NCBI GenBank assembly: GCA_012520945.1 | Contig: JAAYNH010000010.1 | Coordinates: forward strand, 57,752 to 121,751 | Direction: 5' to 3' | Length of the DNA stretch: 64,000 bases | Origin: Treponema sp. | GTDB lineage: Bacteria; Spirochaetota; Spirochaetia; Treponematales; Treponemataceae | Shown here: positions 12,700 to 38,427 of the stretch, in pieces | Position numbering within the stretch: the stretch's first letter is position 1 | How the letters are laid out: the number at the start of each line of letters is the position of its first letter | The notes under the pieces: generated by a model | Told to the model about the DNA's origin: nothing | Database searches by the model: none | What the model saw: the letters and a program-made list of their open reading frames with translations, nothing else | Made by a program: the position numbers and the translations under genes

Positions 12700-13374
12700 A
12701 TGAAAAAAATTAAAGCTGTTGCATTTGACATCGATGGTACATTATATTCTAATTTTCAGTTATACTCAAAAATATGGTTTTATTTTTTGCGTCATTTACG
12801 ATTTTTTATATCTTTTAATCGAGTTCGAAAAATTTTACACAAAACGGCACCTTTGCCTGATTTTTATGAATATCAAAGAAGACTTCTAGCAAAAGAGATG
12901 AAAATTTCCGTTGAAGAGGCAAAAAATAAAATAAATACGATTGTGTATGAAGGCTTTAAGCCGTATTTTAAAAAGATAAAAACTATCCCTCATGTTGAAG
13001 AAACTTTTGTTAAATTTAAAAAGTGCGGATTAAAAATTGCACTTTTATCGGATTTTCCGCCGGAACAAAAAGGCGACATTTGGAATCTTGCACAATATTG
13101 TGATGTTATTTTAGGTAGTGAAGCGTTAGGAGCACTAAAACCGTCAAAATATCCGTTTGGCATTTTAGCAAAAAAACTTGATTTGCCTGCCGAGCAAATT
13201 TTATATGTAGGAAATAATGTTCGTTGCGATGTAAAAGGTGCAAAGAATTTTGGTATGAAATCTGCGTATTTATTGCCTTTTTGGAGAAAAATTTTCAATA
13301 AAAAACATAATCTTGCAGATATTTCATTTAAAAACTATCGCCAATTGCAAAAGATTGTGTTACAATATACTTAA
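12700..13374 (+). CDS. HAD-superfamily hydrolase
   Basis: 224 residues, soluble. All four HAD motifs are visible: motif I FDIDGTLY (nucleophile Asp and acid/base Asp), motif II LLSDFP, motif III Lys in ALKPSKYPFG, and motif IV VGNNVRCDVKGA. The cap lies between motifs I and II, as in phosphoglycolate-phosphatase-like or nucleotidase-like members. The substrate cannot be predicted. It lies 25 nt ahead of the giant coiled-coil gene and may be co-transcribed with it. Confidence 0.88.
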   Translation: MKKIKAVAFDIDGTLYSNFQLYSKIWFYFLRHLRFFISFNRVRKILHKTAPLPDFYEYQRRLLAKEMKISVEEAKNKINTIVYEGFKPYFKKIKTIPHVEETFVKFKKCGLKIALLSDFPPEQKGDIWNLAQYCDVILGSEALGALKPSKYPFGILAKKLDLPAEQILYVGNNVRCDVKGAKNFGMKSAYLLPFWRKIFNKKHNLADISFKNYRQLQKIVLQYT

Positions 13375-13399: not shown

Positions 13400-16300
13400 A
13401 TGATTTTAAATATTATAACACTTATTCTGTGCGTTGCACTCGTTTTTGTATTTCGTTACATGGATAAAAATAATAAGTCCATGGATAAAGTGCGTCGTTT
13501 CGCTGATAAATCAAAAGAAGAATTAGATGAATATTTTAAGGAACGAGTTTCACTTTTGCAAAATTCCGGTGTTGAGTTAGATACAAAACAGTCTGTTTCT
13601 GTAGCAACCGTTATACGATTAGAGGAATTATATAACAAATTTTCTAAAGAAGCAAAAGCAATTGAAGAAAAAATCGCACTTATTGACAAAATGGAAGAAC
13701 GCATCGTTTCATATGATAAATTAATGCAAGATCTTGCCAATATGACAACACATGTTGAAACTAATCTTCTGCGTATAAAAAAAGAAAGTAATATTATTGA
13801 TAAATTAGATGAAAAACTGTCAAGTCAAAAGAAAAATATTGATTTATTAGTTGCGAAAATTCCTCAAGTGGAAGCTGAATTTTCAAAAACGAATGCCGAA
13901 CAATTAAAAAAAGTCGGTGAAAATCTTTTAAAAGTATATAAAGAAGAAGCTCAAAAAATTGAAACTTCTACTAATATGGCAGTACAAAAAAATGATGAAA
14001 TTCTTGCAAGTATTCGAAATGAATTTGCTCGTGCGTTTGAAGAAGCTGCCACTCATGCGGATAAGCTTGAAAAAACTTCGTTCCAAAATTTGCAAGTTAA
14101 AGCTGATGAAAGAATAAAAAAACATCAGGCTGTTGTTGAAAATCTTGTTGCACAATTAAAAAATCATTTACAAAGTGAACAAGTGGCTTTACAAGAAAAA
14201 GCAAAAAAATCTCAACAAGAATTTTTGCGTTTGGAAAGTGAAACTTCACATTTTTCGGAAAAAATTTCTGCAACTGTTTTAAAATCAAAAGCAGTGTTAG
14301 AAAAACTTGTTGGTGATCTTGTTGAAACAAAGGAAAAAATTGCTAAAGAACTTTCCGACGTAATTGAAAAACACGATTTTCAAATTGCAGAATTTACAGA
14401 AAAACATGAGTTGGATATTACACAACTTAAAGAAAAACAAGAATCGGATATTGCACAATTGAATGAAAAACAAGAATCGGATATTACACAATTGAATGAA
14501 AAACTTTCCGGTAATATTATCGATACGACAGAAAAACTTTCAGGCGACTTTAATTTAACAACGCAAAGACTTTCCAGCGAACTTGCCGATGCAATTGAAA
14601 AATATGATTTACAAATTGCAGAATTTACAGAAAAACAAGATACGAATTTTTCGGAACTTACTGAAAGATATGATGCTCAAATTGTAATTTTGCGAGATAG
14701 ACTAAATGGCAATATTGGTGAAATGGAAGAAAAATTGGATTCATCAATTGTGCAAATGGAAATGAAGTTAAATAGCGAAATGAGCAATGTTAGTAGTAAC
14801 TTGGAAAAATCTGTTGAAGAAGTGACTGAAAAAATTAGTGGGGAAAAATCAAAGCTTGCTAGCATTTTTGGAAATAATATATCTGAAATTCGTAAACATT
14901 TTGAAGCAGAAATGATAGATGTAAACAGTCATATTAATTCCGAAGCAACAAAAATGCATGAGCAGTTAAATAACGAAGTTAAACGACTTGAAAATCAAAG
15001 TGAGGAAATTGTAAAAAAACTTTTGTCAGCTCATGAGCAAAAAGCTGTTGATTATTTTGAAAAACTTGATTCACAACTTGATGATTATAAAAATGATGTT
15101 TTGTATAGATACCAAAGTTTTGAAAATATTATTTCAGATACAGATGAACTGGAAAAATCTTTGCGTAATGTTATGGAAGATATTTCAAGTCGTGTTGAAA
15201 ATCAGTTTACAATTTTTACACAAGGCCAAGAAAAAAAGCAAAACGAATTTTCTCAACAATTACTTGAAAGTGCAGATGAGTTATCTGAAAAAATGGCTAG
15301 CTTGGAAGGTGAATTGAACGAATTAAAACAGCGTGCATACGATAATGTTTCTGAAAAACTAGTTGGCTTTGAGGATAGTTTTTTTGAAGATTTGGCTAAA
15401 CGTGCAGATGAAATTACCGTAAAAATGGAACAATGGCGAAGTGACTTTGATGATAAATTGGATGAGCTTTCCATCTCTGTTGAAGACGCACGTAAAGAAT
15501 CTGAAAATACTTGTATGGAAGACATAAAGGAAAGATTGGCTTTAATTTCAGATAAGCTGTCGGAAAACTGTGAGCGTATGGAAGAAAGTATTAGTGCAAA
15601 AGATGAATCATTGCGAGAAAAAATTGAAGGCTATGATACTCAATTGCAAATGTTTACAGAAGAATACAGAGCTGAACTTGAGCGTACAAAACAAACGATG
15701 AATAACTATGTTCATGATGAGTTTGACAGTTTTGTTGCATTTTCAAAAGAAACAATTGTGAAAGGCGAAAAACAAATTGCAGATAAACTTGCAGATATTG
15801 AAAAAAATTTGAGTCATACTCGTGAAAATGCAGAGTTGGAAATTCAATCTGTCCGTGATGATTTTGCTTTGTGGAAAGAAAGGCTTGATTCTCAATTGGA
15901 TGAAATCAATGAAGTTTTCGAAACAAAAGCAAATGGATTAACTCAAAAAGCATCGGAGCTTATTTTAGAAATAGAAAACGTTTTCAAAAATGATGTTAAA
16001 TCTTTTAATGATAGGACGCGTGAACAACAAAATAAAATCATCGAAGAACTACAAAATGTTTCTATGGAACATAGTGAAACTTTAGTAACGTATCAAAAAA
16101 CGGCAGACGAATATATTGCTGATTTTAAAGCTGCATATGAACAGATGCTTGTTGATAATCAAAATAAGATAAAAGAACAAACACAAGATTTGGACACAAA
16201 GTTGAGAGCTGTAAAAACATCAATTCAAGAGTTGTCAAATAAAAATGATAAAGATCAACAAAAAATGATTATGAAAATGCAAAATGATGCAAATTCAATT

Positions 16301-17230
16301 AATGAAACAATTGATAAAATTAATGAGCGTATTAAAAACTTTGAAAAGCAAACTCAACTTTTTACAAAGGCTGATGAACTAAAAGATGAGTTGTTAAATG
16401 ACATTGAACTTTTAAATAATGATATTCAAAAAATAGAATCGTTTCAAAATACTTTTGATAATTTGCAGTCTCAAGTGAAAAAACTTCGTGATGCGGAAGA
16501 GGAAGTGAGCAAAAAACTTTTGAAATTTAATTCTGAAAAAAAACAAATTGATTCAATGGAAAAAGATTTTAATAAATTGCTTTTTCTTTCAAATACAATT
16601 GATTCGCGCATGACTGAAATGCAAATAGCAAGTGATGAGCTTGAGTCTTTGCAAATTGAAGTTAGAATTTATAATGAGCGTTTGAATGATGTTTCAACTC
16701 GATTTGAAAGGCTTGAAAAAAAAGTACCTGTTTTAGATTCCACAATGGAAGGTGTAAGCAAAACATTTGAAGATTTGCAATTAATTGAAAAGCGTTTGGA
16801 AAAATGTAATGAAGATTTTCAGGAGTTGCCGGAACAAGTTGCAGGTTTACAACAAAATGTAGAAAAAATAATGATTAATTCGGATAAAATAAAAAATGCT
16901 GTAGAAAAACTTGATAGTCTAGAAACTTTGGTGATGCAAACGGGTGCGCAAATTCAAGATTTGCAGGAGCAAAAAAAATTGATTGATGAAACTGAAGAAC
17001 ATTTAACGGAAATGAAAAAAGAAGCAGACAAGGGAATAAAGCTAATTCAAAGAATTACACAGAGTAAAAAGCTAACAGATGAATATTCAAAACATGCACC
17101 TTCCGTTTCTGAAGTTGAAAATGTACGCAACTTAAAAAATAATTATGGTTATTCAAATGAGCAAATTGCAAAGAGTTTGAATATGCCTTTGGCTATTGTA
17201 GAGCTAATTTTGAATCTGCCCCCTCAGTAA
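13400..17230 (+). CDS. Giant spirochaete coiled-coil protein (SpiroCoCo-like)
   Basis: 1276 residues. A short N-terminal hydrophobic anchor (about 1-20, ILNIITLILCVALVFVFRY) precedes more than 1200 residues of almost uninterrupted charged coiled coil with no Pro-rich breaks. It ends in a small HTH-like domain (about 1235-1272; NYGYSNEQIAKSLNMPLAIVELIL). This layout matches the coiled-coil proteins annotated as SpiroCoCo in spirochaetes. Residues 317-481 consist of 15 back-to-back 11-residue units. A structural or cytoskeletal envelope role is likely but inferred. GGTGGGA lies 5-6 nt before the ATG. It converges on ispF with 8 nt between stops. Confidence 0.85.
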   Translation: MILNIITLILCVALVFVFRYMDKNNKSMDKVRRFADKSKEELDEYFKERVSLLQNSGVELDTKQSVSVATVIRLEELYNKFSKEAKAIEEKIALIDKMEERIVSYDKLMQDLANMTTHVETNLLRIKKESNIIDKLDEKLSSQKKNIDLLVAKIPQVEAEFSKTNAEQLKKVGENLLKVYKEEAQKIETSTNMAVQKNDEILASIRNEFARAFEEAATHADKLEKTSFQNLQVKADERIKKHQAVVENLVAQLKNHLQSEQVALQEKAKKSQQEFLRLESETSHFSEKISATVLKSKAVLEKLVGDLVETKEKIAKELSDVIEKHDFQIAEFTEKHELDITQLKEKQESDIAQLNEKQESDITQLNEKLSGNIIDTTEKLSGDFNLTTQRLSSELADAIEKYDLQIAEFTEKQDTNFSELTERYDAQIVILRDRLNGNIGEMEEKLDSSIVQMEMKLNSEMSNVSSNLEKSVEEVTEKISGEKSKLASIFGNNISEIRKHFEAEMIDVNSHINSEATKMHEQLNNEVKRLENQSEEIVKKLLSAHEQKAVDYFEKLDSQLDDYKNDVLYRYQSFENIISDTDELEKSLRNVMEDISSRVENQFTIFTQGQEKKQNEFSQQLLESADELSEKMASLEGELNELKQRAYDNVSEKLVGFEDSFFEDLAKRADEITVKMEQWRSDFDDKLDELSISVEDARKESENTCMEDIKERLALISDKLSENCERMEESISAKDESLREKIEGYDTQLQMFTEEYRAELERTKQTMNNYVHDEFDSFVAFSKETIVKGEKQIADKLADIEKNLSHTRENAELEIQSVRDDFALWKERLDSQLDEINEVFETKANGLTQKASELILEIENVFKNDVKSFNDRTREQQNKIIEELQNVSMEHSETLVTYQKTADEYIADFKAAYEQMLVDNQNKIKEQTQDLDTKLRAVKTSIQELSNKNDKDQQKMIMKMQNDANSINETIDKINERIKNFEKQTQLFTKADELKDELLNDIELLNNDIQKIESFQNTFDNLQSQVKKLRDAEEEVSKKLLKFNSEKKQIDSMEKDFNKLLFLSNTIDSRMTEMQIASDELESLQIEVRIYNERLNDVSTRFERLEKKVPVLDSTMEGVSKTFEDLQLIEKRLEKCNEDFQELPEQVAGLQQNVEKIMINSDKIKNAVEKLDSLETLVMQTGAQIQDLQEQKKLIDETEEHLTEMKKEADKGIKLIQRITQSKKLTDEYSKHAPSVSEVENVRNLKNNYGYSNEQIAKSLNMPLAIVELILNLPPQ
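14414..14512 (+). repeat. 33-bp in-frame tandem repeat (3 units) inside the coiled-coil gene
   Basis: Three consecutive 33-bp units at 14414-14446, 14447-14479 and 14480-14512, each starting GATATT and encoding DI(T/A)QL(K/N)EK plus four more residues. They are the most DNA-similar part of the larger 11-residue protein repeat and could change copy number by slippage or recombination. Confidence 0.8.
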
Positions 17231-34944: not shown

Positions 34945-37900
34945 TTGAATAAAATTTTTTATGCGAAAGTTTTTAAGATTCTCTTTTTGAATATTATTTT
35001 TATTTGTGCGATAATTTTATCCGCAGAAAATTTATATGCAAATACTGATTTAAAAATAAAAAAAACAGATAGTATAGAACAAAATGAAAAAAAAGAAGAT
35101 GTTGAGCAGGAAGAAAAGATAATTGAAAAGGCTGAAAAAGAGGAAGAAAAAGAAAATATAAGTGAGACAGTTATCGTTCAAGATGAAAAGCCATTAGCGA
35201 AAACGGAACAATCTGAAAAAAATGATAAAGAAAATAAATCTAAAAGTGAAAAGAAAAAACAGTCTACTACAGTAGTAATTGAAAAAGCCCAAAGAACGGA
35301 ATATCGTAAAAATTTGGAAACAGGAAGTAACATTATTGTTTTGGAAGGAGATGTAAAACTTTCAGTAACGCAATCGAATTCTAAAACCGTCATCACGGCA
35401 GATTTGATTAATTTTGAAAAAGATAGGCAAATGCTTTATGCTGAAGGCAATGTGAAATTACAATCTTTGTCAAATGATAAATTGAGTGAAACGCTTACAG
35501 CAACTACTTTACTTTTCAATGTGGAAACTTTGGAAGGAATTTTTGATGCAGGGCGTGTTGTTCAAGAACAAACAGATGCACTTAATTTGCCTTCAGGTTC
35601 AACATTAGTTGTGGGTTCTGAGATTTTTGGTCGTGATGATTCCGGTACAATTGCTTTTAAAAATGCCGCTTTAACTTTTTGTGAGGATCCTGATCCGCAT
35701 TGGAAAATTAAAGCAACACGTATTTGGCTTTTACCGGGAAATGAATTTGCTTTTTTTAATGCTCTTTTGTATGTTGGAAAGTTGCCTGTTTTATATTTGC
35801 CTTTTTTTTATTATCCTAAAGATGAAATGATTTTTAATCCGGCATTTGGTTTTGATGCACGACGCGGATATTATGTTCAAACTTCAACGTACATAGTTGG
35901 ACGAAAACCTTTAGAAAGCAAAAAGGACGATGATAGTTTTTTTGATTTTATGCGTCCTACTCAATTGAAAAAGCAAATTCGCGAAGGGTTGTTTTTGCAT
36001 AATTTGGAAGAAAATGATTCTAACCCGGATAAATATTTAAAAGTACTTGCTGATTATTACAGCAGTTTGGGTGGATTAGTTGGTGTTACCGGTGTTTTTA
36101 AACCGGGAAAAATATTAACTAACGTTGAGTTTTCTGCAAACCTGGGTTTTAGTCGTACTCTTTTTTATGATAACTATTCTGATAGTTACATTCCATATTA
36201 CAATCATAAAACGTATTATGATTCGTCGGCTTTGTTTGGAATAAAGTTGCCTTTTCGATATACAGCAAATTTTAATGCATCAATTTCACACAGTATTGGA
36301 AATCTTACATTATCTATGCCATTTTATTCAGATGCATATTTTGATTCCGATTTTTTAACAAATAGAAAAGAAACTATGGACTGGATCGATTTTTTGACGA
36401 ACAATCCGGTGCTTTCTCCGAATGAGACATCAACTTCGGAAACATCATCATACACATGGTCATTGACAGGTAATTTGCGTCCGCCTGTTACTAGGTTTTC
36501 TCCGTTTATTAGTTCATTATCTCTTTCTTCGATTAATTCATCAATCACATTTTATTCAAAGCAAACTTCAATGGAAGCCTTTAAATCTATGTTTGATAAT
36601 TCCGATTTAGCACAAAAGATGTATTATACAAGCCCGCAAAGAAAATTTTATTATCCGTCACAGATTGTACCTTTTAAGGCAACACTTAACTTTGCAGGAA
36701 CTATTGTTTCTGTTCCTAAAGTTTTAAAAAAAGAAAATAAGATTGTAGATGAAAAAACAAAAATAAATTTTATAAAACCCGATGATTTAAAATCCGATGA
36801 AGAAGTGGCAAAAGAAGTTGATGGTATAGCTGAAACTAATAATGAAGAAAATAAATTAACAAAAGAAGATGTTGTGCAAAAAGAAATTATTATACCGGAT
36901 TCTGTTTTACCGGAAATTCCCGTTGCCTTTCCAAGTGTCACAAAAAACACAAGTAGTGGAGTTCGTTATAATTTGACATATTCAATTGTACCCGTTTATT
37001 CTTCACTTATTAGTTATGATTCTGCAAAAGTTTTAAAAGTGGAAGATATAGATTTAACTAAAGTGCTTTCTTCTTTTTATTCAATTTCCGTTCCTGTTGA
37101 ATTAAAAAGTGCTTTAAATTTGAGTAGTAGTTTTACACTTTCAAACAGTATAAAGTTTTCTGCATTCAATCAAGCACATCCTATTATGAGTGAAGATGAA
37201 AATGGATATGTAGGTTCTAACTTAAAGTCTACAATTATGTTGAATGACTATAGTGCAAGAAAACTTGATGTTCAAAATGTAAATAGCATGAGCTGGAAAC
37301 CGTTTCAAAATAATAAATATTTTTCTGAAACTTCATTTTCATGGAATTCAACCTTAAAAATTTTGCGTACAAGTTTTGATGGAACATATGATGAACCGTC
37401 TTGGAAATACGATGTTGTCGGTTGGGATGAAGATACTTTTTCTGCTCATAATTTAAGTTTTGTTTTTTCAGCAAAAGAAAAAACAAACGTAATACAAAAG
37501 TTTACATTACAAGCAAACTTACCACCTAGAGATGATTCATATATGGGACAAGTTTCTTTGACTTTTCCTTTTGTGAATTTTAATGCAAAGACTACGTTTA
37601 AAAAAATAACTGACACTGATGAAAATGTTGAGTGGAAATGGGAACCGTTTACTCAAAGCTCTACATGGAGTTTTTTCAAAAAAAAATTAAATATAAATCA
37701 GTCTTTTAATTATGAAATTGAAGAAAAACAATCGACTGCTTTTACATTCGGCATATCGTTTAAAAATTTTACATTGAGCTATTCTCATCAAAACACATAT
37801 GGGTACAATTTAACGGATGTGGGTTGGGAAATTAAAGAAGAAAAAAAATTCATTCCTTATTCTGTCAGCTTGAATTATTCTACTCCAACTAAAACTTTTA

Positions 37901-38427
37901 AGATGTTTAAGGGAAAAGGCAGTTTGTCACCATATTTTTCTACTAGTATTACTGCAGATATGATTAGACCAACAAACTCATATTTTACTTTTTCACCAAC
38001 ACTAAAATTTAGTATTACGAATTTTATCGATATAAGTTTTTCAGCAGAGTCTCGCAATGATGTTATTTTTAGATATTTTCAACATTTTTTTAATTATGAA
38101 AAAAAGGTTCCAGGCGAAACAAATATAATAAAAGATTTATGGGATTCATTTTCATTTTGGAGTGTTGAAGCACGAAGGGCATCCGGATTTAAAATGAAAA
38201 GTTTAAATTTTAAAATAGAACATAATTTGCACGATTGGGATTTAACTTTGGAAGTGAAAATTCAGCCTACATTGATTACATCAAAATTACCATATAAGTA
38301 TAATTTTGATCCGTATATTTCGCTTGCAGTTTTATGGCGACCGATGAGCAGTATGAAAACTGCAATCGTTTCAGAGTATGATGCAACGGTTGATGACATT
38401 GTTATTCAATTGAATTCGGGAGACTAG
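34945..38427 (+). CDS. lptD: LptD/OstA-like outer-membrane protein
   Basis: 1160 residues. A signal peptide (about 1-33) is followed by a Lys/Glu-rich linker (about 35-110), an OstA/LptA-like beta-jellyroll (about 120-225; VLEGDVKLSV, MLYAEGNVKLQS, FGRDDSGTIAFKNAALTFC) and the LptD domain with a predicted barrel (LLYVGKLPVLYLPFFYYPKDE). A second charged insert (about 595-650) interrupts the barrel. The mature protein seems to have a single Cys, so the two disulfides that hold E. coli LptD together cannot form. In LPS bearers LptD inserts LPS; treponemes are usually considered to lack LPS, so the substrate is open. Start TTG at 34945 with AGGA at 34930. Confidence 0.85.
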   Translation: MNKIFYAKVFKILFLNIIFICAIILSAENLYANTDLKIKKTDSIEQNEKKEDVEQEEKIIEKAEKEEEKENISETVIVQDEKPLAKTEQSEKNDKENKSKSEKKKQSTTVVIEKAQRTEYRKNLETGSNIIVLEGDVKLSVTQSNSKTVITADLINFEKDRQMLYAEGNVKLQSLSNDKLSETLTATTLLFNVETLEGIFDAGRVVQEQTDALNLPSGSTLVVGSEIFGRDDSGTIAFKNAALTFCEDPDPHWKIKATRIWLLPGNEFAFFNALLYVGKLPVLYLPFFYYPKDEMIFNPAFGFDARRGYYVQTSTYIVGRKPLESKKDDDSFFDFMRPTQLKKQIREGLFLHNLEENDSNPDKYLKVLADYYSSLGGLVGVTGVFKPGKILTNVEFSANLGFSRTLFYDNYSDSYIPYYNHKTYYDSSALFGIKLPFRYTANFNASISHSIGNLTLSMPFYSDAYFDSDFLTNRKETMDWIDFLTNNPVLSPNETSTSETSSYTWSLTGNLRPPVTRFSPFISSLSLSSINSSITFYSKQTSMEAFKSMFDNSDLAQKMYYTSPQRKFYYPSQIVPFKATLNFAGTIVSVPKVLKKENKIVDEKTKINFIKPDDLKSDEEVAKEVDGIAETNNEENKLTKEDVVQKEIIIPDSVLPEIPVAFPSVTKNTSSGVRYNLTYSIVPVYSSLISYDSAKVLKVEDIDLTKVLSSFYSISVPVELKSALNLSSSFTLSNSIKFSAFNQAHPIMSEDENGYVGSNLKSTIMLNDYSARKLDVQNVNSMSWKPFQNNKYFSETSFSWNSTLKILRTSFDGTYDEPSWKYDVVGWDEDTFSAHNLSFVFSAKEKTNVIQKFTLQANLPPRDDSYMGQVSLTFPFVNFNAKTTFKKITDTDENVEWKWEPFTQSSTWSFFKKKLNINQSFNYEIEEKQSTAFTFGISFKNFTLSYSHQNTYGYNLTDVGWEIKEEKKFIPYSVSLNYSTPTKTFKMFKGKGSLSPYFSTSITADMIRPTNSYFTFSPTLKFSITNFIDISFSAESRNDVIFRYFQHFFNYEKKVPGETNIIKDLWDSFSFWSVEARRASGFKMKSLNFKIEHNLHDWDLTLEVKIQPTLITSKLPYKYNFDPYISLAVLWRPMSSMKTAIVSEYDATVDDIVIQLNSGD

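Follow-up and report, generated by a model that had tools for sequence, protein, structure and literature searches.

In gamma-proteobacteria, the polar flagellum factor FipA combines a transmembrane segment, a coiled region and a DUF2802 domain; its gene lies directly downstream of flhA-flhF-flhG-fliA, and its binding to FlhF requires G110 and L129 and dispenses with E126, as described in the accessible part of the report (PMC11620751). The single-pass membrane protein SwrB of Bacillus subtilis activates flagellar export with FliG, according to the accessible part of its description (PMC4526659). Here we analyse a window of 64,000 nucleotides (the whole stretch of DNA examined) from a Treponema species that holds a gene of the SpiroCoCo family, the tail of which is related to a known flagellar polarity domain and which bears on how spirochaetes position their periplasmic flagella near the poles and set their number.

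The SpiroCoCo gene and its hendecad rod

The gene is the sole locus over the SpiroCoCo_C cut-off in a genome-wide profile search of its own genome, and its product matches both NCBIfam end domains above their curated cut-offs: SpiroCoCo_N (NF047514) with 182.3 bits against 75 over residues 5-231 and SpiroCoCo_C (NF047515) with 252.2 bits against 125 over residues 959-1271. Membership of the SMC/Rad50 proteins was rejected, since PRK03918.1 scored 31.1 bits against a cut-off of 700 and SMC_prok_B 29.9 against 567, both far too low. SpiroCoCo is a named family only, with no function paper found for comparison: searching the literature by the names SpiroCoCo, LA3659 and BB0512 yielded no relevant publication, and nothing on the family was found among the papers listed for bacterial hendecads, spirochaete filaments, Treponema and Brachyspira. 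The parts of the locus are as follows.

12700..13374, + strand: HAD-type hydrolase gene (Pfam HAD_2), ending 25 bp upstream of the rod gene
13400..17230, + strand: SpiroCoCo family gene, an open reading frame of 1276 residues with both NCBIfam end domains over cut-off
13400..13456, + strand: predicted N-terminal transmembrane anchor (about residues 2-18), then a basic stretch (hydrophobicity, flanking K/R, FRxxDK/R)
13457..14090, + strand: heptad-like neck or SpiroCoCo_N domain, to about residue 231 (period 3.50, NF047514, AlphaFold)
14091..16273, + strand: hendecad-type rod, about residues 231-958 (phase-coherent period)
14348..14842, + strand: 15 back-to-back hendecads, residues 317-481 (unit positions, periodicity power)
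14366..14504, + strand: 33-bp tandem array of 4.2 copies (TRF, 83% matches)
16274..17061, + strand: conserved SpiroCoCo_C coil of left-handed type (NF047515; one continuous predicted helix in AlphaFold)
17105..17227, + strand: three-helix C-terminal tail of DUF6115/DUF2802 type (AlphaFold; DUF6115 in family tails)

The gene sits between the HAD-type hydrolase gene, with which it is possibly co-transcribed, and ispF; carD is a further neighbour, and no flagellar cluster was found among the neighbouring genes examined. A same-strand HAD gene also lies upstream of SpiroCoCo at 19 neighbouring loci in 7 families, a tally that leaves out the window locus, whose HAD gene was compared separately. Gene-neighbourhood comparison found this one broadly recurrent neighbour and no other.

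The original prediction had read residues 317-481 as 15 hendecads, and these residues do divide without remainder into 15 units of 11 residues each, in which one of the residues ILMVF occupies position 2 in 15/15, position 5 in 12/15 and position 9 in 8/15 (a 3-4-4 hydrophobic spacing) and 'EK' stands at positions 7-8 in 10 of the 15. In the Fourier check proposed with it, these residues gave a power of 18.4 at 11/3, which none of 20,000 shuffled sequences reached (maximum 9.4), and since the power at 3.5 was merely 0.5, the heptad alternative named there as refuting was not seen. The spacing also continues past residue 481, as had been supposed, with eight 150-residue segments from 130 to 979 peaking at 3.62-3.67. 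The ends of the protein are heptad-like, the peak being 3.50 at residues 30-179 and 3.42-3.47 after residue 930, and the rod is flanked at both ends by left-handed heptad coil. Taken alone, the rod (721 residues) is phase-coherent with a peak at 3.648 and a power of 61.8, and rods across the family have a median period of 3.641 (IQR 3.638-3.644, n=65). The hendecads of the original prediction are thus supported. Its slight right-handedness needs correction: the mean period over the rod, about 3.64-3.65, is near that of an alpha-helix free of distortion, and 'almost straight' describes the rod better than 'right-handed'. To our knowledge, SpiroCoCo rods are among the longest phase-coherent hendecad coils. 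For the N-terminal part, AlphaFold predicts two helices (residues 2-129 and 137-299), interrupted at 129-138 by a stretch of low confidence. At the DNA level, three units at residues 339-371 share 22-29 of 33 bases with one another, and a 77-residue (7-unit) duplication joins residues 317-338 to 394-415 with 27 and 29 of 33 bases identical.

The membrane anchor suggested for the N-terminus is likewise predicted here from hydrophobicity (Kyte-Doolittle 3.0) and flanking charge, with no K/R before it and six in the 15 residues after it, which would place the rod in the cytoplasm. Among the 61 extracted proteins, K/R after the anchor outnumber those before it in 52 of 53 intact N-termini, with one tie, by our reading of the table, and family comparison reveals a conserved FRxxDK/R motif behind the anchor. 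The sequences predict a topology with the N-terminus outside and the rod in the cytoplasm, held by a single N-terminal transmembrane segment as in FipA.

Distribution and the link to flagella

One plan of N-terminal anchor, predicted cytoplasmic rod and C-terminal three-helix tail recurs in the 61 extracted proteins; family, periodicity, common plan and length variation are established by computation. The family is near-universal among the flagellated spirochaetes sampled. SpiroCoCo_C exceeds its cut-off in 42 of 43 FliG-bearing genomes (own, same-family, same-order and same-class kinship) and in 0/20 FliG-lacking relatives. We relied on curated cut-offs because SpiroCoCo_C matches at E<=0.001 are unspecific, occurring in 7 of 14 control genomes with none over cut-off. 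The FliG-lacking lineages belong mostly to one family and so represent few independent loss events, and in them the effect of losing flagella cannot be told apart from that of losing the helical shape. Since FlhF-like frames occur in 17/20 of these genomes (read from frame lengths, nearly all below cut-off), loss of the tail tracks flagella and not FlhF. Co-occurrence with FlhF, which is matched in 14/14 controls as well as in most FliG-lacking genomes, is non-discriminating and counts against FlhF as a specific partner.

The tail is linked by computation both to flagellated genomes and to a flagellar-cluster gene. The flhA-flhF-flhG-sigma-28 cluster of this genome contains a 171-residue transmembrane protein with a DUF6115 tail (L204:8897-9409), and it is this short paralogue, not the window gene, that takes the FipA-like position directly downstream of flhF-flhG. 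We favour, at not quite an even chance, a reading in which an anchored, length-variable cytoplasmic rod carries at its free end a FipA-like dock for the flagellar machinery, where it would meet a candidate partner. We infer oligomeric state, topology, docking partner and spacing role as follows. A single N-terminal helix would fix the protein in the inner membrane, and its chains would associate, parallel coiled coils being the likeliest arrangement, in which a left-handed neck would lead into the nearly straight hendecad rod and on into the conserved left-handed coil, with a flexible linker carrying the three-helix DUF6115/DUF2802-type tail beyond it. This tail would dock not on DNA but on a protein of the machinery that places or assembles the flagellar basal body, either FlhF or the FliF/FliG/export complex. 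The rod would set the reach from anchor to dock, and this reach may evolve by gain or loss of whole 11-residue steps, so that the hydrophobic stripe stays in phase. With a helical rise of about 0.15 nm per residue, the rod would measure about 0.1 micrometre in this Treponema and exceed 1 micrometre in the largest protein. Counting against the favoured reading are the DUF6115 score of the window tail, which is under the cut-off and is accompanied by no listed DUF2802 match, the non-flagellar neighbours of the gene, the persistence of the N-terminal module in FliG-lacking genomes and the minority of tails in which all three FipA residues occur together.

The strongest competitor, possible if doubtful, is a general scaffold of cell shape or envelope, that is, a filament under the inner membrane that makes the cell stiff or curved, with the flagellar link being secondary. 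In other bacteria long coiled coils such as crescentin form part of the cytoskeleton, the family is found across the phylum, and the N-terminal module is kept without flagella: SpiroCoCo_N is found at E<=0.001 in 20/20 FliG-lacking genomes (5 over cut-off), in shorter proteins that in one family mostly end in an acidic tail instead of the HTH, and this persistence argues for a role of the N-terminal half where flagella are missing. Against a scaffold, the conserved C-terminal domain is absent from the genomes examined that lack flagella, DUF6115 reaching E<=0.001 in just 2/20 of them, and the tail matches proteins of flagellar operons.

Length variation, the tail and further alternatives

The extracted proteins, alike at both ends, vary in length between 713 and 9124 residues, and related species differ by rod insertions, often in multiples of 11 (26 indels kept from 10 disjoint pairs that we chose from 75, leaving aside indels of fewer than 4 residues and two of more than 250, namely 1269 and 728). 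Repeat-driven length change, which the original prediction had expected among strains, is thus supported between related species. Such phase-preserving indels, together with a 99-bp tandem array of 10.8 copies in one borrelia-like species, would also suit a molecular ruler whose rod length, adjusted genus by genus, sets how far the flagellar motors lie from an anchor site. A strict ruler is poorly matched by the spread of more than 4000 residues among Brachyspira-like species of one genus, and we consider the ruler reading distinctly improbable. For the spacing or tethering hypothesis, near-universality in the flagellated members sampled, a polarity-related tail, C-terminal loss without flagella and a more than 10-fold length range make it directly testable.

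In the AlphaFold model of the C-terminal 320 residues, a helix runs to segment residue 264 (mean pLDDT 83.1) and is followed by helices at 280-291, 297-303 and 308-316, a three-helix tail that agrees with the HTH-like domain foreseen in the original prediction. Pfam DUF6115 is matched in 30/32 family tails (best 8.4e-11) and DUF2802 in 21/32 (best 1.2e-7); in the window tail DUF6115 scores 17.0 bits, under the cut-off of 27, and DUF2802 is absent from the hit list. The fold, the N-terminal anchor and weak hits to HTH families, for example HTH_23 in 23/32 tails, would be compatible with a membrane-to-DNA tether in which the tail binds the chromosome. However, the tail departs from a typical DNA-binding HTH: the last helix, which would read the DNA, is net positive in 0/79 tails (mean charge -2.0; whole tail -0.5), and DUF6115 and DUF2802 match better. 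The tether is therefore rejected as the main reading and retains very little probability. DNA or, alternatively, another protein had been offered as the target of the rod; the protein was the better half of the guess, since FipA, the studied DUF2802 member, binds FlhF (PMC11620751, accessible part). A search of solved structures with the tail profile returned designed helical proteins and generic HTHs, and no informative relative.

Equally slight is the probability that the rod is an amphipathic helix on the membrane surface, like those of apolipoproteins, with an 11/3 period because it lies flat on lipid: an 11/3 stripe does fit a helix on a flat surface, and the rod shares the 11-residue periodicity of the apolipoprotein A1/A4/E repeats, but its match to Pfam Apolipoprotein (PF01442, 78.3 bits) is under the gathering cut-off of 90, and a narrow, acidic-flanked stripe of about 100 degrees with few Lys/Arg beside it, in a proline-free rod of net charge -64 over 733 residues, suits helix-helix packing better than anionic lipid.

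Comparison with FipA, SwrB and the short flagellar-cluster protein

Among the known systems, DUF6115 is also matched in the B. subtilis genome, presumably by SwrB, which is a short protein. The 171-residue protein of the flagellar cluster resembles SpiroCoCo in its N-terminal hydrophobic segment and its kind of tail; it differs in lacking the FipA-signature G, and its length makes a hendecad rod impossible. SwrB, too, spans the membrane once and belongs to the flagellar system; it differs in that no rod is reported in the accessible part of its description (PMC4526659).

FipA resembles the SpiroCoCo proteins in having an N-terminal transmembrane segment with a short outside part, a cytoplasmic coil and a C-terminal DUF2802-type tail (PMC11620751, accessible part). 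The FipA-signature positions recur in SpiroCoCo tails at the spacing seen in FipA, with G in 84/89, E (+16) in 63/89 and L (+19) in 50/89, and all three occur together in 35/89 tails and in 8/51 outside the Spirochaetia-type set; many members thus preserve the G-L spacing of the FlhF-binding residues, as does the window tail, which has the G and the L and lacks the E. That SpiroCoCo is a giant FipA-like protein, in which a short coil has been replaced by a straight whole-hendecad rod linking anchor to placement machinery, with its length retuned by 11-residue steps as a genus-specific spacer of periplasmic flagella, is a fuller version of the favoured reading that we regard as unlikely. FipA and SpiroCoCo differ in location and size: the FipA gene lies beside flhF/flhG and the window gene elsewhere in its genome, and FipA has 163 residues, of which about 28 form the coiled region, as given in the accessible part of its report (PMC11620751), against 713-9124 residues in SpiroCoCo.

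Family membership and periodicity of the rod

The rod gene and its upstream neighbour lie as follows:

12700-13374, + strand: HAD-type hydrolase gene, separated by 25 bp from the rod gene downstream
13400-17230, + strand: SpiroCoCo rod gene, an ORF of 1276 residues

NCBIfam models identify both ends of the predicted protein as SpiroCoCo family members: SpiroCoCo_N scores 182.3 bits (cut-off 75) over residues 5-231, and SpiroCoCo_C scores 252.2 bits (cut-off 125) over residues 959-1271. The rod gene is the only place in its own genome exceeding the SpiroCoCo_C cut-off. The SpiroCoCo name is present in NCBIfam, and a literature search for publications naming 'SpiroCoCo' or 'LA3659' found none. 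Judged from the sequence, family membership, the hendecad rod, the membrane anchor and length variation are all well supported.

Residues 317-481 divide into 15 units of 11 residues, with I, L, M, V or F at position 2 in 15/15 units, position 5 in 12/15 and position 9 in 8/15, the 3-4-4 spacing expected of hendecads. Fourier analysis of this stretch gave a power of 18.4 at 11/3, above the maximum of 9.4 among 20,000 shuffles, versus 0.5 at 3.5. The hendecads of the original prediction are thereby confirmed, as is its suggestion that similar spacing continues beyond them, with period peaks of 3.62-3.67 in windows spanning residues 130 to 979. Residues 30-179 peak at 3.50, windows after residue 930 at 3.42-3.47, and the rod alone (721 residues) at 3.648 with a power of 61.8. 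An alpha-helix has ~3.6 residues per turn, and because the rod average lies near this value, the rod would be almost straight rather than markedly right-handed, flanked by two left-handed ends. Of the predicted slightly right-handed coil, the non-heptad rod therefore stands, heptad-like only at its ends, and marked right-handedness does not. The hydrophobic stripe is ~100 degrees wide, and such a narrow stripe on a proline-free, acidic rod (net charge -64) would fit packing between helices.

Repeats and rod length across the family

The rod gene DNA contains a 33-bp tandem array of 4.2 copies and encodes an internal duplication of 77 residues, or seven units (317-338 versus 394-415). For comparison, 61 family proteins including the window member were extracted, and 28 more brought the set to 89. 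For the 84 not flagged as cut off at the edge of a region or contig, the median length is 1364 residues and the extremes are 713 and 9124; in a few of these the N-terminus cannot be used, one being masked and others having misplaced starts. We take the genomes bearing the giant proteins to be Brachyspira. Intra-genus rod differences are often single blocks of 55, 22, 33, 99, 132 or 231 residues. In 10 disjoint pairs chosen by hand out of 75, 10/22 indels of at least 10 residues were multiples of 11. Indel phases (26 indels of 4-250 residues) cluster at a period of 3.64 with a mean cosine of 0.54, matched by 1 in 100,000 random draws. As tandem duplication of 11-residue units alone would yield such a pattern, the route of change is shown; the clustering agrees with selection for phase without proving it. 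Across 65 proteins of 1000-3200 residues, the period of the rod taken alone is constant (median 3.641, IQR 3.638-3.644, range 3.46-3.678); in the shortest relatives (~710-840 aa) the heptad part is often dominant, with a peak near 3.46.

Further variants were seen at individual loci. The rod gene of a presumably borrelia-like genome carries 10.8 copies, at 92%, of a 99-bp unit that spans three hendecads (L254:5273-6332). Two further families within the phylum (L051 and L066) have SpiroCoCo genes in tandem pairs, a long gene of 2774 or 3005 aa with a short one of 1300 or 1371 aa. In a Treponema-type genus, an in-frame stop near position 8303 of L211 breaks the gene in one genome, and the gene is intact in relatives.

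Membrane anchor, neighbourhood and flagellar association

The predicted N-terminal membrane anchor is supported by sequence: in the window member, K/R residues are absent ahead of the hydrophobic segment and number six behind it, and K/R after exceeds K/R before in 52/53 members with an intact N-terminus, the remaining one being a tie (read off the table). Given this excess, the rod should be cytoplasmic. Single-chain AlphaFold models of the first 300 residues (mean pLDDT 85.1, pTM 0.29) show two long helices on either side of a low-confidence break at 129-138, where the chain could form a hairpin. In the model of the last 320 residues (mean pLDDT 83.1, pTM 0.27), a continuous helix runs to position 264, and a disordered linker joins it to three short helices.

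In a neighbour survey of 51 loci under 33 family labels (one locus being an empty window record), the only broadly recurrent neighbour was the same-strand upstream HAD-type hydrolase, found at 19 loci of 7 families, a recurrence that makes a conserved operon with the rod gene possible. Elsewhere in the window, a 1160-aa ORF (34945-38427) has no Pfam match.

FliG was undetected in 59/248 genomes of the class sample, and 20 of the 59 were examined. SpiroCoCo_C exceeded its cut-off in 0/20, and DUF6115 was found at E<=0.001 in 2/20. SpiroCoCo_N was found at E<=0.001 in 20/20, five over cut-off, in proteins of ~195-724 residues, the 195-residue one running off its contig. In the main FliG-lacking family (f53; L222, L228-L241) the N-terminal membrane module is kept, and most proteins have an acidic end in place of the HTH-like tail; in members of f48, f49 and f59 the end is still tail-like. 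SpiroCoCo_C exceeded its cut-off in 42/43 FliG-bearing genomes (own, same-family, same-order or same-class kinship; phylum sample) and in 137/198 genomes of the whole phylum sample. Flagellar docking, the direction in which the tail points, is the best-supported function of the rod protein, a tentative reading that we place slightly short of probable; a putative spacer role is an attractive extension of it.

The tail and its resemblance to FipA

The original prediction envisaged a rod from membrane to DNA or to another protein, with an HTH-like C-terminal domain. Three short helices are indeed modelled there, but the family tails fit a DUF6115/DUF2802-type end better than a DNA reader. The last tail helix is never net positive (net charge <=0 in 79/79 tails, these being the ones out of 89 in which the motif could be parsed), which argues against DNA reading and leaves membrane-to-DNA tethering unlikely. 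With tails scanned singly at E up to 1, DUF6115 matches 30/32 family tails (best 8.4e-11) and DUF2802 21/32 (best 1.2e-7); for the window tail the DUF6115 match is weak, at 17.0 bits against a cut-off of 27.

FlhF-like frames are kept in 17/20 FliG-lacking genomes (read from frame lengths), which argues against FlhF as sole partner and hints that FlhF also has a non-flagellar role. In genomes without FliG such as G269, G292 and G305, these frames measure ~370-460 aa.

The rod gene's own genome also encodes a TM protein of 171 aa that ends in a DUF6115 tail (L204:8897-9409, contig C8), its gene preceded by flhA, flhF, flhG (MinD-like), a sigma-28 gene (FliA/WhiG) and one more ORF. By visual inspection of gene order, similar short genes lie near a like flagellar cluster in L205, L206 and L208, and no flagellar neighbours were seen in L207. 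The 171-aa protein is a candidate spirochaete counterpart of FipA/SwrB.

FipA is described as a DUF2802 membrane protein that recruits FlhF for polar flagella, with G110 and L129 needed for FlhF binding and E126 dispensable (PMC11620751). SpiroCoCo tails have the corresponding G in 84/89, E at +16 in 63/89 and L at +19 in 50/89, and G and L are present in the window tail. All three residues occur together in 35/89 tails, 27/38 in the Spirochaetia-type set versus 8/51 elsewhere.
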